NCBI GenBank assembly: GCA_003151515.1
Contig: PLXS01000030.1
Coordinates: forward strand, 15,757 to 79,756
DNA: 64,000 bases
Direction: 5' to 3'
Source of the DNA: Opitutaceae bacterium
Lineage (GTDB): Bacteria > Verrucomicrobiota > Verrucomicrobiia > Opitutales > Opitutaceae
The notes beneath the pieces were generated by a model. The model ran no database searches, was not told where the DNA came from, and worked only from the letters and a program-made list of their open reading frames with translations. This document shows, in pieces, positions 3,956 through 50,822 of this stretch. Position numbers and translations under genes: made by a program. The number at the start of each line of letters is the position of its first letter. Within the stretch, counting starts at the first letter, position 1.

Positions 3956-4150
3956 CAAATGTGTCTCCTTTTCAATGCCGGTGGGGCCAATGGGTAGGTT
4001 CATGGGCTGCAGGATCAGTCCGGGGATCAAGTGTAGGACGGTGGGAGAGTGTTTTGGTTGCGCGAAGACCCCCAGATATGGCTGTTCTTTTGGGGCCCCC
4101 GTGTGCCGCCCCGAGGCGTACCCGACGTAAGCCCATGGCGGCCCCTGATT

Positions 4151-4178
4151 CTTATACTTCTAGCGTCAGGCCTTACAA
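4151..4178 (-). promoter_or_regulatory. Candidate sigma-70 promoter of the mdtAB operon
   Basis: In the 307-bp gap between mdtA and the fic gene the minus strand shows TTGTAA (4178-4173), 16 bp, then TATAAG (4156-4151), about 195 bp before the mdtA start. The heptamer TCAGGCC occurs twice around it (4165-4171 and 4187-4193), which could be a regulator site. The rest of the gap is GC-rich with no gene or clear hairpin. Prediction by eye only. Confidence 0.4.
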
Positions 4179-4262
4179 TTACGATATCAGGCCCGGATTG
4201 GGGCGCGCCCGAATACGCTTCCCCGCACAAGGGGACCCCGGCCGAGGGCCCCGCGGCGCTGG

Positions 4263-5450
4263 TCAGGCGTGGACGTGGCCGGGAGGGAACAGTCGCGGGA
4301 AGTAGGTGCCCAGGACCTTGGCCGGAAGGGCCAGCCTGACCGGCGATTTTGGCGTCAGGGACTTGAGGAGCCCGGCCTCCACGGCGGCCGCGAGGGCGGT
4401 CCGTCCGGTGCGCTCGCCCGCGCCGGCGATCCGGCCCGCGTCGCCGCGCTGGAACTCCCCCCGGTAGAGCGCCTCGCGAAGCAGCAGGAGTATCCGCGCG
4501 CCCGTCTCCCCGAAGCCCGCCTCCACGCGCACATAGTGCTCAATCCGCTCGGCGAGCGTGTCGAGTTCGAAGAGGGCGTCCATGAAGCTGATCTGGTCGA
4601 GCATGACCTTGAGGACGAATTCGCAGAATTCCCGCAGCGCGCGCTCGCTCAGGTGCCCGTTTCCGTCGCCCGCCGCCGCGGGATCCCGCTCGTGGTCGGC
4701 GTTGGCCAGGCGCTCGTAGTATTCCTGGCGGGCAAAGGCCAGCCCTCGGGAAAGCGACCATAGGCCCCCAGCATCAATCCCGAGCTGGCGTATGAGCGTG
4801 TCGGAGAAGATGCGCACGACCCGGCCGTTGCCGTCGCGGAAGGGGTGTATCCAGGCGAGGCGGTGGTGGCTCGCGCCGACGGCGACGATCCTCGCCGCGA
4901 GCGTTCGCCCCGGAGCCTCGTAGCGCCGCCGGAAATGGCCCATCAGCCCCGGCACGAGCGCGTGCGGAGGGGCGAGGTGCGCCCCCACCCTGACGTCGCG
5001 CTCGCGCAGCGCACCCGGCGTGATCGGCACCTGGGCGCCGGTCACCGCCGTCGCGGTGCGCAACGACTCGGGCAGCGCCGAGTAGAACCGCCTGTGGACC
5101 TCGCAGAGGAAATCCCCGGAAAAGGGCGAGCCCCCGTATTCGGCGGCCCAGCTCTGGCACGCGAGGTGGGCGAGTGCCAGCTGTTGCAGGTCACGCTTCT
5201 TGGGCTCGGTAGAGAAATCGTCGTGGAGCGCCGCCTCGATTTCCGTGACGAGGGTCTGCTGGCCCTCGATCAGGTTGGAGTAGTAGCAGTGCAGAAGCCG
5301 CGTTATTCCGGCCAGTTCCTCGCGAAGCTGCGGCCGGAGCTTCGCCTGGAGCTGGCCGGAACGCAGGATGACAGCGCAAGCCCGATCCTCCAGGGCTGCC
5401 ATGTTCTGCTCGGGAAGGACGGGTTCGATAGAGGTTTCCGTGAGGTCCAT
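4263..5450 (-). CDS. Fic family protein (class II, N-terminal inhibitory helix)
   Basis: Fic enzymes transfer AMP (sometimes other nucleotides) to hydroxyl side chains of target proteins. 395 residues. The catalytic motif HPFRDGNGR is complete at residues 202-210. Residues 58-63 read SNLIEG, matching the inhibitory (S/T)xxxE(G/N) motif placed before the Fic core, hence class II with self-inhibition. The last ~80 residues look like a winged helix (GRIAGAGERTGRTALAAAVEAGLL), as in Fic proteins that may bind DNA. AGGA lies about 9 nt before the ATG at 5450. No antitoxin partner gene is adjacent, which fits an intramolecularly controlled enzyme. The promoter contains four TGCCGAT repeats, suggesting specific regulation, perhaps by the protein itself. 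Target proteins are unknown. Confidence 0.92.
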   Translation of the reverse strand: MDLTETSIEPVLPEQNMAALEDRACAVILRSGQLQAKLRPQLREELAGITRLLHCYYSNLIEGQQTLVTEIEAALHDDFSTEPKKRDLQQLALAHLACQSWAAEYGGSPFSGDFLCEVHRRFYSALPESLRTATAVTGAQVPITPGALRERDVRVGAHLAPPHALVPGLMGHFRRRYEAPGRTLAARIVAVGASHHRLAWIHPFRDGNGRVVRIFSDTLIRQLGIDAGGLWSLSRGLAFARQEYYERLANADHERDPAAAGDGNGHLSERALREFCEFVLKVMLDQISFMDALFELDTLAERIEHYVRVEAGFGETGARILLLLREALYRGEFQRGDAGRIAGAGERTGRTALAAAVEAGLLKSLTPKSPVRLALPAKVLGTYFPRLFPPGHVHA

Positions 5451-41842: not shown

Positions 41843-43405
41843 ATGGCCGAGCACGGACTGCGCAAGCTAGTGATCACCTTCACGGTGATCACCGCGGCGA
41901 TCATCGAGCTGATCGACACGTCGATCGTGAACGTGGCGCTCAACGACATGAGCGGGAACCTCGGCGCGACGCTCGAGGACGTGGCCTGGGTCATCACCTC
42001 CTACGCGATCGCCAACGTGATCATCATCCCGATGACGAGCTTCCTGGCCGCCCGCTTCGGCAGGAGGAACTACTACATCGGCTCCATTCTCCTCTTCACG
42101 GCGGCCTCGGTCGCCTGCGGCAACGCGCACAGCATCTGGGAGCTCGTCTCGTTCCGCTTCATCCAGGGCCTCGGGGGCGGCGCGCTCCTGTCAACCTCCC
42201 AGGCCATCCTCTTCGAGACCTTCTCCGTGGCGCAGCGCGGCTTCGCGGCTTCTCTCTTCGCGGTCGGCATCTTCGTCGGGCCGACGATGGGCCCGACGCT
42301 CGGGGGGTGGATCATCGACCAGTATTCCTGGCCGTGGATATTCTACATCAACCTGCCGATCGGCCTGCTGGCCGCGTTCCTGTCGTACCTCTACGTGAAG
42401 GAGCCCGCCCACGCGAGGAGCGCCGAGACGATCGACTGGCTTGGCATCGCGCTGCTCGTCGCGGGCCTGGGCGCGCTCCAGACGGTCCTCGAGCGAGGCG
42501 AGACCGAGGACTGGTTCTCGACGCGCTACATCGTCGCCCTGACCGCGGTGGCCGCCTCCTCCCTCCTTCTGTTCGTCGTCAGAGAGCTCACGACCGAGCA
42601 TCCCGTCGTGGACCTGCGCGTGCTAAGGAGCGGCAAGCTGGCCATCGCGGCCTGCCTCACGTTCGTGCTGGGGTTCGCCCTCTTCGCGACGGTCTTTATC
42701 GTCCCGGTATACACGCAGCGCCTGCTCGGCTACACGGCCCTGGAGACCGGCAAGCTTTTCATCCCGGGCGCGGTGGTCGCGGTGGTGTTCCTGCCGATGA
42801 TGGGGCGCCTCCTCGTCAAGGGGTTCCCTCCGCAGGTGATGGTCGTCGCGGGCTTCGCCATTGTGGCCCTCTTCGCGCTGCAGCTTTCCGGGCTGGACCT
42901 GGAGGCCCAGTCGGGAAACTTCTTCTGGCCCATCATCCTGCGCGCCATCGGCCTTAGTCTCATCACGATCCCGCTCACGCAGCTGGCCGTGTCCGGGCTG
43001 CATCCCCACGACATCCCCCAGGGCGTCGCGCTCAACAACATGATGCGCCAGATGGGCGGCTCCTTCGGCGTGGCGTTCATAAACACCTTCCTGGACCACC
43101 GCTACGCGGCGCACAGGATGAGCCTCGTCACCCGGCTCGTGCCCGGGGATGCGGCGACCGACGGGAGGATCGCGGCGCTCACCCGCGCGATGCTCGCCCA
43201 CGGCTCCAGTGCCTGGGAGGCGCCCAGGCGCGCCATGGGGCTCCTGGACCTGGTCGTCCAGCGCCAGGCGGGCCTTCTCAGTTATCTCGACGCCTTTCGT
43301 TTTGTCGGGTTCCTTTCCCTTGTGTGCGCCCCCCTGATCCTGTTCGTCGGGCGCACCCGCCCGCTATCAAAGACCGCGCTCGCAGCGACCGCCGACTCCC
43401 ACTGA
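41843..43405 (+). CDS. emrB: MFS multidrug transporter, EmrB/QacA (DHA2, 14 TM) family
   Basis: Drug:proton antiporter of the inner membrane. 520 residues with 14 predicted helices. Motif D1 near the start: IELIDTSIVNVALNDMSGNLGATLEDVAWVITSY. Motif A: FLAARFGRRNYY. Motif C-like: GIFVGPTMGPTLGGWI. C-terminal half: VALNNMMRQMGGSFGVAFINTFLDHR. Works with the adaptor and TolC homolog on either side. Substrates unknown; no regulator gene is adjacent. Confidence 0.95.
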   Translation: MAEHGLRKLVITFTVITAAIIELIDTSIVNVALNDMSGNLGATLEDVAWVITSYAIANVIIIPMTSFLAARFGRRNYYIGSILLFTAASVACGNAHSIWELVSFRFIQGLGGGALLSTSQAILFETFSVAQRGFAASLFAVGIFVGPTMGPTLGGWIIDQYSWPWIFYINLPIGLLAAFLSYLYVKEPAHARSAETIDWLGIALLVAGLGALQTVLERGETEDWFSTRYIVALTAVAASSLLLFVVRELTTEHPVVDLRVLRSGKLAIAACLTFVLGFALFATVFIVPVYTQRLLGYTALETGKLFIPGAVVAVVFLPMMGRLLVKGFPPQVMVVAGFAIVALFALQLSGLDLEAQSGNFFWPIILRAIGLSLITIPLTQLAVSGLHPHDIPQGVALNNMMRQMGGSFGVAFINTFLDHRYAAHRMSLVTRLVPGDAATDGRIAALTRAMLAHGSSAWEAPRRAMGLLDLVVQRQAGLLSYLDAFRFVGFLSLVCAPLILFVGRTRPLSKTALAATADSH

Positions 43406-43415
43406 TCCCGCACGC

Positions 43416-44750
43416 ATGAAGGCCCTCTCCATGAAAAGAACCGCCGCAACCCTACTGGCCCTGGCCGCCCTTGGCGCGTCAGCGCCCGCAGACGGGCAGG
43501 ACCCGGCGCCCATGACCCTCTCGCAGGCCATCTCCACGGTGATCGAGCGCTACCCGTCGATCGACGCCGCGAAGGCCGCCGTGGACGCCGCCCGGGCCCG
43601 CACGATGCAGTCGAACGCGGACCGCCTGCCCCAGGTGAGCGGCAACGCCAACTACCTCTACAATTCGCTTCGGCCCTACGTGGCGTTCGCCATTCCCGGG
43701 CTCCCCCCGGGGGCCATCTACGAGAACGTCCAGGACTCGTACGTCGCGAGCGTGACCGCGAGGCAACTCCTCACGGACTTCGGACGGACCGACAAGCTGG
43801 TCGAGATGGCGCGCTCCGGCCAGATCACCGCCGAGGACGCGCTCGAGGACACGAGGCACCAGCTCGGCTACCAGACGATCCAGTCCTTCTACGGGGTCAT
43901 CCTCCTGCGCAGCTCGTCCGACGTCGCCAGGGAGGAGATCAGCGCGCTTGAGGAGGCCCTGCGCATCGCCGAGCGCAAGTTCGCCGCGGGAACCGCGACC
44001 AAGTTCGACGTGCTTACGACCCAGGTGCGCCTTTCCAACGCCCACAACCACCTGACCGACACCCTCGCCTCGCTCGAGAAGGAGGAGAACGGGCTGCGCC
44101 AGCTCCTGGGCATGGACGTCGCGGCCCCGCTCGCCGTCACGGGCGACTTCGACGCCGGCGCGCTCGCGATCCCCGAGTCGGTGGCGATCTCGGACGGGCT
44201 GATGAACCGCCCGGAGATGAAGCTCGCCAAGGACGCCGAGCAGACGGCCCGCCTGAGGCTGGATGCTGCGGACCGGGGCAACAGGCCGACGCTCGACGCG
44301 CAGGTCTCGGCGGGCCTTGAGAACGGGATCGTCCCCAGCCTCTACGACAACAAGGGCTACCTGACGGCCGGCCTCGCGCTTGAGGTGCCGATATTCACGG
44401 GGAGGCGGGTCACGGGCGACCGCCTCGAGGCCGGCGCCGGGGTCCGCTCAGCCAAGGCCCGCGAGCTCGAGCTCACCCAGGCCATCACGGCGGACGTCGC
44501 CAACGCCTACGCCGACCTGAACGCGGCAAAGGCCAGGCTCGCGAGCGCCGACACCCTTGTCGCCCAGGCGAGCGAGGCCCTGGCCCTGGCCCAGACCCGC
44601 TACGCCAACGGCGTCATAACGAACTTCGAGCTCCTCGACGCCCAGAGCTCCATGCGGGCGGCCGAGCTCACGCGCCTGCAGGCGCGCTACGACTGCGTCC
44701 TCGCGCGCCAAGCCGTCGCGCGCGCCGCCGGCGTCGCCCCCCAGCCCTAA
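43416..44750 (+). CDS. tolC: TolC-family outer-membrane efflux channel
   Basis: 444 residues. Signal peptide MKRTAATLLALAALGASAPADG (from the second Met, 43431, if that start is used), then two tandem OEP repeats: LSQAISTVIERYPSID ... and, after residue ~230, LAIPESVAISDGLMNRPEMKLAKDAEQTARLRLDAADRGNRPTL. Long alpha-helical hairpins (IAERKFAAGTATKFDVLTTQVRL, LALAQTRYANGVITNFELLDAQSSMRAAEL) are the usual TolC/OprM patterns. Third gene of the emrAB-tolC operon, forming the outer-membrane exit of a complete tripartite system. Confidence 0.93.
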   Translation: MKALSMKRTAATLLALAALGASAPADGQDPAPMTLSQAISTVIERYPSIDAAKAAVDAARARTMQSNADRLPQVSGNANYLYNSLRPYVAFAIPGLPPGAIYENVQDSYVASVTARQLLTDFGRTDKLVEMARSGQITAEDALEDTRHQLGYQTIQSFYGVILLRSSSDVAREEISALEEALRIAERKFAAGTATKFDVLTTQVRLSNAHNHLTDTLASLEKEENGLRQLLGMDVAAPLAVTGDFDAGALAIPESVAISDGLMNRPEMKLAKDAEQTARLRLDAADRGNRPTLDAQVSAGLENGIVPSLYDNKGYLTAGLALEVPIFTGRRVTGDRLEAGAGVRSAKARELELTQAITADVANAYADLNAAKARLASADTLVAQASEALALAQTRYANGVITNFELLDAQSSMRAAELTRLQARYDCVLARQAVARAAGVAPQP

Positions 44751-44804
44751 GGGGCCGGGACGGGCGCGGTTGACGAGGGGCGCACCGTCTGCTGTCTTTT
44801 CGCC

Positions 44805-45614
44805 ATGTACACCATCATCGGTGGCGACGGCAAGGAGTACGGTCCAGTGTCCGCCGAGCAGGTTCGCGGCTGGATCGCGGGCGGGCGGGCCAACTTGAAG
44901 ACGAGGGTCAAGGCCCTCGGTAGCGATGAATGGAAGAGCGTGGAGGACTTCCCCGAATTGACGGCCGCGGCGGCCACGGTGTCGGCGTCCTCGGCCCCGG
45001 CGCGCAATCTGGACATCCTGAGCTGCTACGAGCGCAGCTGGACGCTTCTGAAGGCCAACTTCTGGCCGCTGGTCGGCGTGAACCTGCTTGTGGTGGTGAT
45101 GCTGCTCCTGATAGGGGCGACCCACTTCGGGGCAATCCTCATGGGGTCCCTGCTAGGCGGCGTCATCGTCGCCGGCCAGTACTACTTCTTCCTGCTAAGG
45201 GTCCGCGGGCAGCCCGCGACGCTGAAGGACGCCTTCGCCGGGTTCACCAAAGCCTTCGTGCAGCTGCTGGTGGCGGACATCCTGCTCTCCCTCTTCTACA
45301 CGCTCGGGCTCATCTGCCTCGTGCTTCCCGGCATCTACCTGGTGGTCGCCTACTCCTTCACCTACGTCCTTGCGGCCGACAAGGGCCTCGGTTTCTGGGA
45401 GGCGATGGAGACGAGCCGCAGGGTGGCCACCGGCCAGTGGTGGCGGGTCTTCGGCCTGATGCTCCTCGGTATTCCGTTCGCGCTCCTCGGCATCGCCGCG
45501 CTCGGCGTCGGCCTCCTGGTCACGTGGCCCCTGATAACCGGGGCGTTCGTCTACGCCTACGAGGACCTGTTCAACGCGAAGCCGGCCGCCCCCGTCACCC
45601 CTTCTTCTCCCTGA
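44805..45614 (+). CDS. GYF_2 domain membrane protein
   Basis: 269 residues. N-terminal GYF_2 (DUF4339) domain, residues 1-55: YTIIGGDGKEYGPVSAEQVRGWIAGGRANLKTRVKALGSDEWKSVEDF, probably a protein-interaction module for proline-rich partners. The remainder has about six membrane helices resembling the YciC/DUF975 type (LVGVNLLVVVMLLLIGAT; VLPGIYLVVAYSFTYVLAADKGLGFWEAMETSRRVATGQWWRVFGLMLL). Function unknown. Its 3' end overlaps the convergent doxX-like gene by 20 bp. Confidence 0.82.
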   Translation: MYTIIGGDGKEYGPVSAEQVRGWIAGGRANLKTRVKALGSDEWKSVEDFPELTAAAATVSASSAPARNLDILSCYERSWTLLKANFWPLVGVNLLVVVMLLLIGATHFGAILMGSLLGGVIVAGQYYFFLLRVRGQPATLKDAFAGFTKAFVQLLVADILLSLFYTLGLICLVLPGIYLVVAYSFTYVLAADKGLGFWEAMETSRRVATGQWWRVFGLMLLGIPFALLGIAALGVGLLVTWPLITGAFVYAYEDLFNAKPAAPVTPSSP

Positions 45615-46053
45615 ACAGAAGCGAGTCGAGGGCGATCCTGCCCGGGCCGAACACGAAGACGATCACGGCGGCGAACAGGAACGGCGTCGCCGAGGTGAAC
45701 TTGTCGGTGTCCGAGAATATGGCGTGCAGGGAATCCTTCTCGGCCGTCGCGTAGGCGACGCACATCACGCAGACGAGCGCGGGCGAGGCGAAGCGCGAGA
45801 GCAGGCCCAGCGCGAGGAGGGTCCCGCAGCCCAGCTCGGTGCACGAGGCCATCCCGGCGTTTAGCTTCGGGGCCGGGATGCCGAGCGAGTCGAAATACCC
45901 CGCGACCTGGCCCAAGCGGTGCAGCTTCCCCCAGCCCGTCTGCATGAACTGCCATCCCCAGTAGACGCGTACGATCAGCAGGAACGGGCATCTGAGCCAT
46001 GAGCCGGCCGTCGCCAGGAGGCCGTTTAGCTTGGAGATGAAGGCAAAGAGCAT
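45595..46053 (-). CDS. DoxX-family membrane protein of the bufferin-like operon
   Basis: 152 residues, four membrane helices. DoxX motifs: LLIVRVYWGWQFMQTGWGKLHRLGQVAGYFDSLGIPAPKLNAGMASCTELGCGTLLALGL, then AYATAEKDSLHAIFSD (periplasmic loop) and FLFAAVIVFVFGPGRIALD. DoxX-type proteins are regular members of MNIO/DUF692 peptide operons (called BufD there), possibly giving redox support. It lies 36 bp after the DUF2063 gene on the same strand, last gene of the operon. Confidence 0.87.
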   Translation of the reverse strand: MLFAFISKLNGLLATAGSWLRCPFLLIVRVYWGWQFMQTGWGKLHRLGQVAGYFDSLGIPAPKLNAGMASCTELGCGTLLALGLLSRFASPALVCVMCVAYATAEKDSLHAIFSDTDKFTSATPFLFAAVIVFVFGPGRIALDSLLFREKKG

Positions 46054-46089
46054 GTTTTTTCTTGGGGTGATTGCCGTCCGTGGACCTGG

Positions 46090-47022
46090 CTAGGATGCGC
46101 GGGCGCCGCTTTTATTCCCGGGGGCGCAGAACCAGCCAAGAGCCATCCAGACCTTGAACCAACGGCGCACGCGCCCGGGCGTGGCCGCCGGCCCGCCCGC
46201 CACGACGGCCCTCGACAGCGTTTCGCCCCGGGCGAGCGCCGATAGAATCCGGAACGCCGCGGGATCGAGCCTCTTGTAGAAGAGCCTGTCGTTGAGCCTG
46301 TGCACGGCGACCAGGGTGCGGGCCGGCCGGGGAAGCGCCGCCCGGCGGGCCGGGCGGTGGAAGGCGGCCTCGACCGGCGTGTTGCTCGCCTCCGAGCGCA
46401 GCGCGTCGCGCCGCTTGACGCGGATCAGGTACGTGTCGACCGGATAGCGCAGGTCGAGGAGCGTCACGTAGGGCTGCAGCCCGAGCCTCAGTCGCGCCGG
46501 GGGCGCGGACGCAAGGTGCGCCGCCGCCATGACCTCGCGCGCCTCGCCGTCGAAGGCCACCGTCTGCGCCCATTCAAAGCGGGCGATCTCCGCGGCAAGC
46601 GCGGTCCTGGGCGCCGTCAGGCGCGGGTTCTCGCGGATGAACCGCTCAAGGCGCGAGCACAGGTCCCGCAGCGTGAAGGAGCGCGACGGGCACCTCTCAA
46701 GGTAGGCCTGCGCGAGCCTGTCGAACGCCCGGTCCCCGAGCGCGGACACGAGGCCCGGGCAGTCGTCGCGGATCGCGTCGAAGAGCCTGAACCAGTACAT
46801 CCTGTTGTAGAGCTGGAGGCGCTCCACCGAGGTGAGCCTGTCGTTCGGCTTCACGAACTCGGCGGCCACCGTCTCCATCGGCCGGCCGTCGATCCAGAGC
46901 GGCTGCAGCCGGTCGTCCGCGGTGAGGGGCCGCAGCACGGCCGCGGCCATCATCCGCTGGAATTTCCTCAGGTCGGAGGTGGAGGCGATGCGCCTGGGCG
47001 CGTGCCTGGGCGGCGGTTTCAC
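46090..47022 (-). CDS. DUF2063 / BufC-HvfC family partner of the MNIO enzyme
   Basis: 310 residues. The N-terminal DUF2063 domain is recognised by LRKFQRMMAAAVLRPLT, then RLTSVERLQLYNRMYWFRLFDAIRDDCPGLVSALGDRAFDRLAQAYLERCPSRSFTLRDL. The C-terminal part (ALARGETLSRAVVAG) has a winged-helix look. In known systems this protein binds the DUF692 enzyme and presents the precursor peptide to it; the older label was putative DNA-binding protein. The GTG start at 47022 overlaps the MNIO stop as GTGA, so the two are translationally coupled and probably made in equal amounts. Confidence 0.87.
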   Translation of the reverse strand: MKPPPRHAPRRIASTSDLRKFQRMMAAAVLRPLTADDRLQPLWIDGRPMETVAAEFVKPNDRLTSVERLQLYNRMYWFRLFDAIRDDCPGLVSALGDRAFDRLAQAYLERCPSRSFTLRDLCSRLERFIRENPRLTAPRTALAAEIARFEWAQTVAFDGEAREVMAAAHLASAPPARLRLGLQPYVTLLDLRYPVDTYLIRVKRRDALRSEASNTPVEAAFHRPARRAALPRPARTLVAVHRLNDRLFYKRLDPAAFRILSALARGETLSRAVVAGGPAATPGRVRRWFKVWMALGWFCAPGNKSGARAS

Positions 47023-47867
47023 ACCGCGGCCCTCTTTGCGCCGTCAATGAACTCGTTCGCCTTGAGGGCCTCGTTGTGCACCTCGTCGAACGAGGGGATC
47101 TTGTCGTCCCACTCCAGAAGGGTCGCCGTTACGCCGCACAGGCGCGTGGCGTGCGCGTAGAGCTTCCAGACGGGGTCGAGTACCGGGTGGTCGTGCGTGT
47201 CCAGGATGTACTTCTCGAACTTGGTGTGGCCGGCGACGTGCATCTGCCCGACGCGGTGGTGCGGGATGTTGTTCACGTAGTCGTACGGGTCGAAGCCGTG
47301 GTTCTTGGACGAGACGTAGATGTTGTTTACGTCCAGCAGAATCCCGCAGTCCGCGAGCTCGACCACCTCGGTGAGGAATTCCCATTCGGTCATCTCGGAG
47401 GCGTGGAACTCGACGTAGCTGCTCACGTTCTCCACGCACACGGGCACCTCCACGTAGTCGCGCACCTGGCGGATCTTCTCGGCGGTGCGCCGGGCGGCGG
47501 CGAACGTGTACGGCATCGGCAGCAGGTCGTGCGTGTACGTCCCGTCGACGCTGCCCCAGCACAGGTGGTCCGACAGCCAGGGGGTCTTCGTGCGCCTTGC
47601 CAGGCCCTTCAGCCTCCTCAGGTGGGTCCTGTCGGGCCTGTCCGCCGAGCCGAAGTACATCGAGACCCCGTGCTGCACGACGCGGTACTGCTCGAGGATC
47701 TGGTCGAGGAGCGCGAGCGGGCGGCCGCCCTCAACCATGAAGTTCTCGGAGATGATCTCAAACCAGTCGACGACCGGCTTCTTCGAGAGGATGTGCGAGT
47801 AGTGGGGGACGCGAAGGCCTATGCCTATGCCGTAGCTGGTCTGCCCGTTGAATCGGTTGGCTGGCAT
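47019..47867 (-). CDS. MNIO (DUF692) peptide-modifying iron oxidase, BufB/MbnB-like
   Basis: 282 residues, TIM-barrel multinuclear non-heme iron oxidase. Motifs: GIGLRVPHYSHILSKKPVVDWFEIISENFM, VVQHGVSMYFGSAD, LSDHLCWGSVDG, VCVENVSSYVEFHASEMTEWEFL, CGILLDVNNIYVSSKNHGFDP, GQMHVAGHTKF, DTHDHPVLDPVW, TLLEWDDKIPSFDEV. The His, Asp, Asn and Glu residues in these blocks are the iron ligands of the family. Such enzymes oxidise cysteines of a partner peptide (oxazolone/thioamide in methanobactin, thiooxazole in bufferins). The obvious substrate is the Cys-rich protein at 47919-48212. The ATG follows a terminator U-tract with no room for a ribosome site, so its translation is unusual. Confidence 0.93.
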   Translation of the reverse strand: MPANRFNGQTSYGIGIGLRVPHYSHILSKKPVVDWFEIISENFMVEGGRPLALLDQILEQYRVVQHGVSMYFGSADRPDRTHLRRLKGLARRTKTPWLSDHLCWGSVDGTYTHDLLPMPYTFAAARRTAEKIRQVRDYVEVPVCVENVSSYVEFHASEMTEWEFLTEVVELADCGILLDVNNIYVSSKNHGFDPYDYVNNIPHHRVGQMHVAGHTKFEKYILDTHDHPVLDPVWKLYAHATRLCGVTATLLEWDDKIPSFDEVHNEALKANEFIDGAKRAAV

Positions 47868-47903
47868 AAAGAAAAACGCGGCCGGTCTTCACCCGGCCGC
47901 GTT
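47868..47903 (-). terminator. Intrinsic terminator/attenuator between precursor and MNIO genes
   Basis: 11-bp perfect stem AACGCGGCCGG / CCGGCCGCGTT (47875-47885 with 47893-47903), 7-nt loop. On the minus strand the stem runs into TTTTTCTTT (47876-47868), directly followed by the ATG of the MNIO gene at 47867. Read-through would set the ratio of precursor to enzyme. Confidence 0.85.
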
Positions 47904-47918
47904 GCTTCCAAGCACAGA

Positions 47919-48212
47919 TCAGGCGAAGACGACGCTGCTCGGGGTCGGCGTGGGGCTCGTGTTCGTGCTGCAGCCGCCCTTGCCCTTGCAGGAGTTCTGG
48001 CCCTTGCAGCCGTTGTCTCCGGACTTGCACCCGCCCGTGCCCTTGCAGGAGTTCTGGCCCTTGCAGTCGTGCTTGCCCGCGTCCTTCGAAGCGTCCTTCG
48101 AGGAATCGCCGCTTCCTGCCTGGTCGTGGGCGAATGCGCGCGCGGCCGTGGATCCTGCGTAGAGCCCGGCCATGGCCGCGGCGGTGACGATCAAGCGTGT
48201 CGTTTTGTTCAT
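47919..48212 (-). CDS. Secreted Cys-rich bufferin-like precursor peptide
   Basis: 97 residues from the ATG at 48212. Signal peptide about 1-28 (MNKTTRLIVTAAAMAGLYAG ... ARAFA, then HDQAG). An acidic/Ser/Lys linker follows, then two near-identical Cys units: CKGQNSCKGTGGC (50-62) and CKGQNSCKGKGGC (69-81), each C-x5-C-x5-C, joined by KSGDNG. A Pro/Thr/Ser tail ends SSVVFA. The pattern and the neighbouring DUF692, DUF2063 and DoxX genes mark it as the substrate of an MNIO enzyme, probably exported to chelate copper or another metal after cysteine modification. An upstream in-frame ATG at 48305 with GGAGG 4 nt before it would add 31 residues; I prefer 48212 because it gives a normal signal peptide. 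Confidence 0.85.
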   Translation of the reverse strand: MNKTTRLIVTAAAMAGLYAGSTAARAFAHDQAGSGDSSKDASKDAGKHDCKGQNSCKGTGGCKSGDNGCKGQNSCKGKGGCSTNTSPTPTPSSVVFA

Positions 48213-48303: not shown

Positions 48304-48331
48304 ATTATTCCTCCGGCTAATGAAAATTCAA
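48304..48331 (-). promoter_or_regulatory. Candidate promoter of the bufferin-like operon
   Basis: Minus strand TTGAAT (48331-48326), 16 bp, AATAAT (48309-48304). Transcripts starting near 48297 would have an ~85-nt leader with two possible hairpins, GGTTCTCC/GGGAAACC (48230-48245) and around GGGTCCGCA/TGCGGGCCC (48251-48271). The same DNA also reads GGAGG-AATA-ATG, a rival ribosome site and start (48305), so either reading is tentative. Confidence 0.3.
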
Positions 48332-49331: not shown

Positions 49332-49744
49332 TTGCCGATGGCGTTTACCACGATGCGGTGGGGGTCCGCCGCGTTGCCCAGGGTGACGGCGTAGCCGTTC
49401 ATGTTGAGGTACCTGACCCTGCCGCCCCACGAGACGCGCGCCTCGACGTTGAGCCCGTGGCGCAGGAGTTCGTCCTCGGCCAGGTACTCGACACGGAAGG
49501 CGACGGGCGATGCGCCCGGCTTGGTGATGGTCTGCGAGCCGAGCACGCGAAGCGGGGTGTCTCCCCTCTGGGGCACCACGATGCGAACGGCGACCACCGC
49601 GCCGGCGGGCAGCAGGGCGTCGCCCAGGTCGACGGTGCCTATGAGGACCCGCGAGGGGTCCCCCTCGGGGGTCGTGTCCAAGTGGCCGCAGCCCGCGAGG
49701 GCGGCGGCCGCAACGGCGGCAAGGATGGCAAGTGTCGGCTTCAC
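49328..49744 (-). CDS. YbaY/YscW-like lipoprotein
   Basis: 138 residues. Signal and lipobox LAILAAVAAAALAGC (Cys19), so lipid-anchored. The mature part is a small beta-sandwich: VLIGTVDLGDALLPAGAVVAVRIVVPQRGDTPLRVLGSQTI, then SPVAFRVEYLAEDELLRHGLNVEARVSWGGRVRYLNMN, the pattern of YbaY-type lipoproteins. Role unknown. Overlaps both neighbours by 4 bp (ATGA upstream, GTGA downstream). Confidence 0.78.
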   Translation of the reverse strand: MKPTLAILAAVAAAALAGCGHLDTTPEGDPSRVLIGTVDLGDALLPAGAVVAVRIVVPQRGDTPLRVLGSQTITKPGASPVAFRVEYLAEDELLRHGLNVEARVSWGGRVRYLNMNGYAVTLGNAADPHRIVVNAIGK

Positions 49745-50733
49745 GGGAGGAATTCCGTCGTCATGGCCTGGTCCACAGTGAGCCCGCCTTTCTGCAGGAT
49801 GCCAAGCTCCTCGAGCTGGCGGATCTGCAGGGCGATGCGCTCGCGGGTTATCCTGCCGACCATGGAGTCGTCAGAGGCGCCGCGACCGACGACCAGCTTC
49901 TCCTTGATGATCAGGTCGCGGCAGAACTTCATGAATTCGTCGGTGTTGTTGGGGTTCGCGCTCTTCATGAGCGCGTTGCCCGGCGAGGGGTCGCCCTCGA
50001 TGTAGTCCTTCCACCCGCGTATGTAGGCGGCCATGAACGCGCGCAGGTGGCCGGCGTTGCGGTTCGCCCATGGGCGGTTGGCCACGAGCGTCGCGTACGC
50101 GTCGAACCCGGCGTCCCACTCGAAGAGGAATTTCGGGGGCTTCCCGCCGCCCTTGACGATGTAGTAGGGCTCCGCGGTGTAGTAGCCCTGCTGGATGAAG
50201 TTCGGGTTGGCGATGAAGTTGGCGACCTCGAAGTTCTGGGGGATGGTGTTGAACTCGATGTGGTACTTCCTCTTCAGGTAGGGGATGAAGGCCCACTCGG
50301 GCCGCGCCATGATGGTCTTGCCGTTCAAGTCCTCGAAGCGCTTCACGGGATTGTCGGCGTGGAGCATGAGCACCGTCGGGTCGTTCTGGTATACGGCCCC
50401 GATCATGACGACGGGCAGCCGCTGCGCGATGGCTATCAGCGTGTTCGTGCTGTCGGTCTGCCCGATGTCGGCCTTGTCCGTGACCACCTTCTGCATCACG
50501 AACGCGTTGGCCCCACCCTGGACGAGGTCCACGTCGAGGCCCGCCTCCCTGAAGTAGCCCTTGGCGAGCGCCTGGTAGAGGCCCCCGTGCTCGGGCTCCG
50601 CGACCCAGTCCAGCTGGACCGTGACCCTGAACGGCTGCGCGGCGCCGGCAGGGGCCTCGGGGGCCCTGCGGGAGCAGCCCGCGGCCGCGAGGGCCGCGGC
50701 GCACCCAAGGGCAATCATTCGCTGGGCTTTCAT
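49741..50733 (-). CDS. NMT1/THI5-type ABC substrate-binding lipoprotein (paralog 1)
   Basis: 330 residues from the ATG at 50733 (MKAQRMIALG; an ATG 4 codons earlier is possible). Lipobox AAGC. NMT1/SsuA-like fold: VTVQLDWVAEPEHGGLYQALAKGYFREAGLDVDLVQGG, DIGQTDSTNTLIAIAQRLPVVMIGAVYQNDP, DLNGKTIMARPEWAFIPYL, FIQQGYYTAEPYYI. Such proteins bind pyrimidines, nitrate, sulfonates or flavins. It is clearly related to the protein at 54507-55529 (same EHGG-YQALAKG, FIQQ, RGW-D--GDP motifs). No permease or ATPase lies next to it, so it may share the transporter at 55529-57117. Confidence 0.88.
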   Translation of the reverse strand: MKAQRMIALGCAAALAAAGCSRRAPEAPAGAAQPFRVTVQLDWVAEPEHGGLYQALAKGYFREAGLDVDLVQGGANAFVMQKVVTDKADIGQTDSTNTLIAIAQRLPVVMIGAVYQNDPTVLMLHADNPVKRFEDLNGKTIMARPEWAFIPYLKRKYHIEFNTIPQNFEVANFIANPNFIQQGYYTAEPYYIVKGGGKPPKFLFEWDAGFDAYATLVANRPWANRNAGHLRAFMAAYIRGWKDYIEGDPSPGNALMKSANPNNTDEFMKFCRDLIIKEKLVVGRGASDDSMVGRITRERIALQIRQLEELGILQKGGLTVDQAMTTEFLP

Positions 50734-50822
50734 CCTTCGGCACATCGGTAGCGCGGCCGCGCGCCGCCCGCAACTGCGCAGTGCTCGCCCGCGGGGCGGG
50801 GTTTGTGCTAGGCAACGCTCTC

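Follow-up and report, generated by a model that had tools for sequence, protein, structure and literature searches.

A divergent bufferin-type operon of an Opitutaceae bacterium and its branch with variable numbers of cysteine repeats

A window of 64,000 nucleotides from the genome of an Opitutaceae bacterium (contig PLXS01000030.1 of assembly GCA_003151515.1) contains four genes that raise the question of whether a small protein with two cysteine repeats, encoded ahead of a DUF692 enzyme, is the precursor of a modified metal-binding peptide, and whether its duplicated CKGQNSC core sets it apart from the precursors already known. The open reading frames (ORFs) bufA, bufB, bufC and doxX are all found on the minus strand where the initial annotation had placed them, and the six cysteines of the precursor lie at exactly the positions given there (Table 1). 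Directly observed are the operon, the families of its products, the iron ligands, the predicted fold of the partner protein, the homology of the precursor to BufA2 and the conservation of the set. The window operon is a conserved bufferin-type operon and a divergent variant of the known bufferin systems; the earlier view of a bufferin-like operon for a multinuclear non-heme iron-dependent oxidative enzyme (MNIO), a partner and a DoxX protein is thus upheld, with family cut-offs passed and iron ligands intact. It is not a chance arrangement, because a BufB match is present in 18 of the 57 genomes searched, the host's own included (one of them, G053, holding a distant relative of 31% identity), and a precursor gene lies upstream of bufB in 78 of 80 loci. 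These loci are the 80 best BufB matches in genome contigs, a set biased towards near relatives, and the precursors were detected with a hidden Markov model (HMM) built from the alignment A1 described below, which found none at L038 and L065. We consider it quite probable that the operon is a system for a ribosomally synthesised and post-translationally modified peptide (RiPP) of the bufferin/captophorin kind, from a divergent branch of Buf2, which would make 5-thiooxazoles for the binding of metal, likely Cu(I), in the periplasm. The genes bufB and bufC overlap by 4 bases, 51 bases separate bufA from bufB, and doxX shares 20 bases with a convergent gene (44805-45614, plus strand). There is a single DUF692 match in the host assembly, and BufA too has just one clear match there, a second BufA-like match reaching 14.6 bits (E 0.1).

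Table 1. Features of the operon and of its putative expression signals (positions in the window)
Feature	Position	Strand	Remarks
bufA: precursor, 97 residues	47919..48212	-	Cys50/56/62/69/75/81; NF050166 match
bufA regions			putative Sec-type signal peptide (by eye, roughly residues 1-28); linker; core from C50 to C81, cysteine spacing 6-6-7-6-6; variable tail
bufB: MNIO (DUF692) maturase, 282 residues	47019..47867	-	PF05114, NF050167
bufC: partner with DUF2063 and RiPP recognition element (RRE)-type domains (PME-type 1), 310 residues	46090..47022	-	GTG start; PF09836, predicted fold
doxX: DoxX-family membrane protein, 152 residues	45595..46053	-	last gene of the operon; PF07681
Intrinsic-terminator-like hairpin between bufA and bufB	47875..47903	-	11-pair stem and T tract
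Sigma-70-type promoter-like site upstream of bufA	48304..48331	-	TTGAAT-16-AATAAT

The DUF692 assignment proposed for the enzyme holds, since BufB matches the curated profile PF05114 with 350 bits (cut-off 25); it also matches the NCBI model NF050167 (BufB) with 340.5 bits (cut-off 310). Here and below, papers are cited by their PMC numbers for the portions of text that were consulted. The iron ligands of TglH (H71, H107, E151, D184, H216 and E258, with N187, D229 and H231; PMC10880893) map in the alignment to identical residues of BufB in nine of nine cases (H66, H101, E146, D179, H210 and E252, with N182, D223 and H225). Over 92 aligned rows, two of which are the window protein and 90 of which come from other loci, eight of these ligands do not vary, and 91 rows have E252. 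A DUF692 protein devoid of iron ligands, which the initial annotation had named as the outcome that would speak against it, is therefore not what is found in silico, all nine being kept. D254 corresponds, as judged from its position in the motif, to Asp249, the presumed base of FonB (PMC13097082). The specificity site after the base is Phe in Lys-Cys enzymes and Asp in Cys-Lys enzymes (PMC13097082), and BufB has D255 at this Phe250-equivalent position, where Asp is found in 87 of the 92 rows (Ala in three, Asn and Ser in one each) and in seven of the nine proteobacterial BufBs aligned; Gly occurs in the Thiothrix Buf2 enzyme L103 and in an Asticcacaulis enzyme encoded beside a DUF2282 gene.

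The residue before the base distinguishes the enzymes of the branch, being Trp253 in 91 of the 92 rows, whereas L019 and the nine proteobacterial BufBs all have Arg there. A search of the phylum rendered a BufB match in 26 of 288 genomes, 25 of them above the cut-off, and those 25 (the window's included) all read LEWD at this site, 19 of them LEWDD. BufB of the window is 46.4% identical to that of Pseudomonas putida and 48.7% identical to that of Thiothrix, and in a FastTree phylogeny the nine proteobacterial BufBs stand apart (support 0.865) from 110 of the 111 sequences of the BufB set. L113 alone falls elsewhere, being placed with Thiothrix at a support of 0.31, though its motif is LEWD. 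This BufB, from genome G317, reads LEWDA, and upstream of it lies an ORF for a larger protein, rich in Gly and containing a single CAGGNSCANLGGC stretch; this protein is perhaps another type of precursor. L019, from G053, is the distant DUF692 protein of 31% identity already mentioned, and lies in the same gene order.

BufC matches PF09836 (DUF2063) with 54 bits (cut-off 27.2), and a relative of it is present in 78 of the 80 loci. Its AlphaFold model, built from 32 sequences, has a mean predicted local distance difference test (pLDDT) score of 90.5, and the only Foldseek matches of the model with E<0.001 were to chains A of TglHI (8hci and 8hi7; 8hci_A, E 4.7e-6) and to NGO1945 (3dee, E 2.9e-5). 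Chain A of 8hci is TglI by exclusion, because chain D is the DUF692 protein. The MbnABC chain 7fc0_C and the RRE protein TbiB1 were matched without significance, at E 0.89 and at E 2 or more, respectively. The DUF2063 match and the predicted two-domain fold like that of NGO1945 and TglI identify BufC as a PME-type 1 partner, longer at 310 residues than the 250-260 typical of this type (PMC12452194). At the level of sequence, a phmmer search of the PDB with BufC gave no match at E≤1, and a profile search of the PDB gave ten chance-like matches with E≥0.05, mostly to ribosomal L18. DoxX matches PF07681 with 74 bits (cut-off 23.6), and 52 of the 80 loci have a doxX gene downstream in the same orientation. 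The models HvfC (NF050145) and HvfX (NF050144) scored 36 and 63.4, below their cut-offs of 142 and 80.

It is in the comparison of the precursor that the initial annotation needs correction. It was right to set BufA apart from the DUF2282 bufferins, a family that is ruled out for it by the lack of any Pfam match at E≤1, but it missed the nearer relative, BufA2 of the Buf2 systems, whose model NF050166 BufA matches with E 4e-10 and 39.8 bits, below the cut-off of 60. In alignment A1, which comprises the BufA of the window and 29 hand-chosen others, most of them with six cysteines, 30 of 30 sequences match NF050166 at E≤1e-3 and none at E≤3e-16, a value taken as about 60 bits. The proteobacterial BufA2s encoded on plasmids, by comparison, all score 83-106 bits (7/7; nine plasmid loci were fetched, of which L109 and L110 gave no precursor and were left out of scoring and alignment). 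Among atypical precursors of the branch that were scanned one by one, L046 reached 18.8 bits and L088 17.9. BufA thus fails the NCBI test for BufA2 and yet, by its sequence, is homologous to BufA2, and most likely works like it.

When the BufA of the window and four relatives from its branch were aligned with the seven plasmid BufA2s, C1-C5 were found to share the BufA2 register, with a spacing of 6-6-7-6, whereas C6 comes 6 residues after C5 in the window branch and 13 after it in BufA2, that is, seven residues nearer. In BufA2 the canonical C6 is followed by xxxGG in six of the seven plasmid sequences. By itself, then, the twin CKGQNSC core is no novelty, because the first five cysteines of Buf2 are spaced identically, and it was ruled out as a new class of precursor. 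A repeat confined to one species was likewise rejected. What truly sets the branch apart is that the sixth cysteine has moved, that the repeats vary in number and that BufB carries Trp253 as a signature.

A second bufferin family has already been described under the names Buf2/BufA2, 'Buf_6/12Cys' and 'Cys-Lys' captophorins (PMC12452194, PMC13097082). The window operon shares with it a precursor of putative Sec type, an MNIO, a DUF2063-RRE partner and often DoxX, as well as the identical spacing of the first five cysteines and the Asp at the Phe250-equivalent site. It differs from it in the distance of 6 rather than 13 from C5 to C6, in lacking the C-terminal Cys-xxx-GG, in having CKG at C1 where Buf2 has CxG, in a core of 3-11 cysteines and in Trp253 of BufB. 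Operon layout and enzyme family are also those of Buf1 (DUF2282, PF10048), the precursors of which have four cysteines instead of six and, unlike BufA, a Pfam family. The EGKCG oxazolins, fontiphorin and bulbicupramide ('Lys-Cys' captophorins) are similarly built from repeats into cysteine arrays that are matured by an MNIO and a DUF2063 protein, but their repeat is a five-residue Lys-Cys one and that of the window branch a six-residue Cys-Lys one; MmrA has five to eight cysteines (PMC12538549), and FonBC does not process an NACKG substrate (PMC13097082). The iron site is shared with the MNIOs of methanobactin (MbnABC) and pearlin (TglAHI), and the partner fold with TglI. The methanobactin model TIGR04159 scored 40.3 (cut-off 325), and no pearlin model was among the matches listed. 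The precursors and leaders of methanobactin and pearlin differ from BufA of the window.

The six cysteines are invariant across A1, but over the 78 precursors of the wider set the core is modular. It holds six cysteines in 52 of them, three in 2, four in 10, five in 1, seven in 1, eight in 5, nine in 4, ten in 1 and eleven in 2, where the counts of L052 (8) and L061 (7) include cysteines outside the core and L034 is atypical. The exact 6-6-7-6-6 spacing is found in 49 of the 78, and of 400 distances between successive cysteines 314 are of 6 residues and 60 of 7. Closely related enzymes can be accompanied by precursors that differ by whole modules: L059 has three cysteines and L097 six (BufBs 95.7% identical), L131 seven and L046 nine (97.7%), and L011 six and L035 ten (90.1%), and nearly pure CKGKDG arrays of 7 and 9 cysteines occur under BufBs that are 96.6-97.7% identical. 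The ten precursors with four cysteines are all acidobacterial (Granulicella, Edaphobacter, Bryocella and kin) and, in an alignment made by eye, have lost C3 along with C4. By parsimony the class of repeat number requires 13 changes on the BufB tree, compared with a mean of 29.8 and a minimum of 25 in 300 shuffles, so that repeat number tracks the tree and has nonetheless changed often. Of the 121 tips of this tree, 23 gave no usable count, namely the outgroup, nine proteobacterial tips, five that lack a precursor and eight atypical ones hand-set to unknown; L052 and L061 were hand-set to six. L046, L131, L132, L050 and L126 encode precursors that are nearly pure C-K-G-K-D/E-x hexad arrays with 7 to 11 cysteines; that of L046 is matched weakly by NCBI models for collagen-like adhesins, far below their cut-offs.

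In A1, KG follows C50 in 27 of the 30 sequences, C56 in 30, C69 in 24 and C75 in 30; it follows C62 and C81 in one sequence each (L084), and GG precedes both of these cysteines in all 30 rows. In the 49 regular loci the counts of KG after C1 to C6 are 41, 47, 2, 36, 48 and 0. Since KG follows C50, C56, C69 and C75 and GG precedes C62 and C81, the first four are most likely the residues that would form rings. The idea of one metal site per unit, raised by the initial annotation, fits the existence of precursors with a single unit (L059 and L088).

Ahead of the core, BufA shows by eye a basic start, a hydrophobic stretch and an AFA-like site. Its AlphaFold model is disordered (pLDDT 53.5), with residues 4-21 as the sole helix of at least four residues, at low confidence. 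Mean pairwise identity in A1 is 0.81 for the core, 0.43 for residues 1-28, 0.23 for the linker and 0.28 for the tail. The identity of the signal part, together with its invariant A12, A13, G16 and G20, fits a signal peptide that doubles as the RiPP leader, and bufferin precursors are reported to carry signal peptides instead of typical leaders (PMC12452194).

As for expression, one promoter-like site was found in the region where 0.2 would be expected; AATAAT or AATATT is kept in eight of eight aligned upstream regions of near relatives, and a -35-like TTG can be seen by eye in seven of them. One terminator-like hairpin was found in the region compared with 1.3 expected, which alone is not above chance; it folds with a z of -3.94. 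A stem of at least 7 with a T tract is present in 31 of 88 intergenic stretches between bufA and bufB, compared with 1.0% of letter shuffles, and the hairpin of the window is credible because of this conservation across loci, its own case lying outside the 31 since its T tract was clipped. The 31 loci comprise 24 from Verrucomicrobiota (mostly Opitutaceae) and 7 acidobacterial ones; in L017, L032, L046 and L053 the hairpin and T tract are kept with different letters in the stem. No hairpin was detected in 57 of the 88 stretches, including some of Opitutaceae such as L033, L036, L050 and L011.

In the mechanism that we propose, the modification, the export, copper as the metal and the role of DoxX are modelled on characterised relatives. 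With a terminator downstream of its gene, BufA would be produced in larger amounts than the enzymes, and the hairpin may thereby hold expression of the enzymes below that of the precursor. The RRE-type domain of BufC would hold the conserved signal-peptide (leader) part of BufA in the cytoplasm, where BufB, as a di- or tri-iron oxygenase, would oxidise the CKG cysteines (most likely C50, C56, C69 and C75), each of which would lose four electrons to become a 5-thiooxazole. The modified product would exit by Sec and bind soft metal ions in the periplasm, most likely Cu(I), with DoxX assisting.

Several observations weigh against this metal-binding role or some part of it. Expression, mass or metal data were found for no member of the branch. 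BufA and the 29 other sequences of A1 stay below the cut-off level of the NCBI BufA2 model, and the precursor of L095, one of three odd members, has no match to NF050166 at E≤0.01. In 28 of the 80 loci no downstream doxX was found, and no more than 7 of those 28 stop within 2.2 kb of bufB. The rule of Asp255, to judge from the Gly of L103, is not strict, and Trp253 could alter the chemistry. This last point is the core of an alternative by which the enzyme would install another modification, or act on other cysteines, than is the case with the 5-thiooxazoles of Buf1, Trp253 and the moved sixth cysteine marking a changed reaction or register. The near-complete replacement of the proteobacterial Arg by Trp253 (91/92 rows, with LEWD in 25/25 in the phylum search) would suit it; MNIOs elsewhere perform other chemistry (PMC12452194), and a solved structure of a Buf2 product was not noticed among the literature matches listed. 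BufB has, on the other hand, kept the iron ligands and the base, and all characterised cases of an MNIO with a type 1 PME install 5-thiooxazole (PMC13097082), so that we regard altered chemistry as improbable. Far less credible still is that BufA is an unmodified, metallothionein-like Cys-rich protein and that the MNIO genes act on something else. Its disordered model resembles a metal-free metallothionein, but the presence of a precursor beside bufB in 78/80 loci, the strong constraint on the residues after the cysteines (KG after C56 and C75 in 30/30 rows of A1) and what is known of the biology of Buf2 and captophorins all speak against it.

It can also be the case that the chemistry is the same and the task another: instead of dealing with an excess of copper, the system would counter a different stress (oxidative, or by some other metal) or would store metal. 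This we find rather unlikely, if the most serious of the alternatives. Among the recurrent neighbours of the branch, read by eye from cluster representatives only, no gene could be recognised as a copper gene, which counts for such a task and against copper. Moreover, a gene for an extracytoplasmic function (ECF)-type sigma factor and one for a likely zinc-finger anti-sigma factor, both named by eye, follow doxX in 8 of the 80 loci, all acidobacterial (L049, L060, L064, L072, L073, L076, L087 and L098), and other metals and stresses have been suggested by Antoine et al. (PMC12452194). Sigma genes have been reported with Buf1 and not Buf2 clusters (PMC12452194), a statement from which these acidobacterial operons differ; in the Buf2 operon of Asticcacaulis (L104), sigma factor and NrsF genes follow as well. 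Against it, captophorins bind copper (PMC13097082, PMC12538549), and two proteobacterial Buf2 operons have copper or heavy-metal neighbours, L107 a gene for a heavy-metal P-type ATPase and L108 one for a copper-resistance multicopper oxidase.

Members of the branch were seen in Verrucomicrobiota, Acidobacteriota and one Phycisphaerales record. In print, no paper on the branch was among the matches listed, most subscription papers lying outside the search, and CKGQNSC had no occurrence among the matches listed for DUF692 or CKGQNSC. The main text of PMC12452194, figures and supplements aside, has no word starting with Verrucomicrobi or Acidobacteri, and the branch may be in its data. Precursors with six cysteines from DUF692/DUF2063 loci have been described as almost exclusively proteobacterial (PMC8692599), and in the literature consulted the MNIO-DUF2063 products with described chemistry are proteobacterial. 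Our comparison suggests that the NCBI BufA2 model misses the precursors of a branch spanning at least two phyla.

Five of eight Verrucomicrobiota genomes searched contain PF02461 (pmoA-type) genes, and their carriers, which have small genomes, are therefore probably methanotrophs of a family that we infer to be Methylacidiphilaceae. BufB of the LEWDD type is encoded with BufC in L122, L128, L130 and L133 (genomes G198, G096, G108 and G125), L140 and L141. The precursors of the putative methanotrophs are short, with two CKGK units and a C-terminal WC, CWC or CC, and an ArsC/Spx-like gene (by eye) lies close downstream in these loci, where DoxX was not found; in the fifth pmoA genome, G311 (L129), just a weak, atypical precursor was found. 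To our knowledge no methanobactin is known in verrucomicrobial methanotrophs. The short CKGK precursor is a possible copper peptide of these organisms.

The branch is notable because its number of cysteine repeats varies between species, one conserved type of enzyme being paired with natural substrates of 3 to 11 regularly spaced cysteines. There is, in our judgement, about as much reason to accept as to doubt a wider interpretation in which Verrucomicrobiota and Acidobacteriota would share a metal-peptide RiPP branch of their own, apart from proteobacterial Buf2, whose MNIO with the Arg-to-Trp change would read the C-K-G hexad irrespective of number, so that lineages could adjust their metal capacity through the gain or loss of hexads or 13-residue modules, the reduced form of the verrucomicrobial methanotrophs possibly serving copper economy. 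The branch in any event offers a natural series of substrates for testing how an MNIO-RRE pair selects its cysteines and keeps count of them, and whether metal capacity rises with the number of repeats.

The recurrent neighbours within 4 kb are, apart from the operon genes and the acidobacterial pair of sigma and anti-sigma genes, a 2-hydroxyacid dehydrogenase gene and a GYF/DUF975 gene (15 loci each, a matter of synteny in Opitutaceae). A DUF1223-like gene lies near the operon in six loci of the branch (L092, by eye, and five more), and an annotated DUF1223 gene (4047-4736) is near the operon of the Sphingomonas plasmid L106. In the window, the plus-strand stretch 41843-45614 encodes an EmrB-type exporter of the major facilitator superfamily, a TolC-type outer membrane protein and a GYF/DUF975 membrane protein, the last gene being convergent with doxX. 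On the other side, the minus-strand gene at 49328-49744 matches the YscW-family lipoproteins (PF09619, 40.8 bits) and probably encodes an ordinary envelope lipoprotein; it adjoins a gene for an NMT1/THI5-type binding protein (49741-50745).

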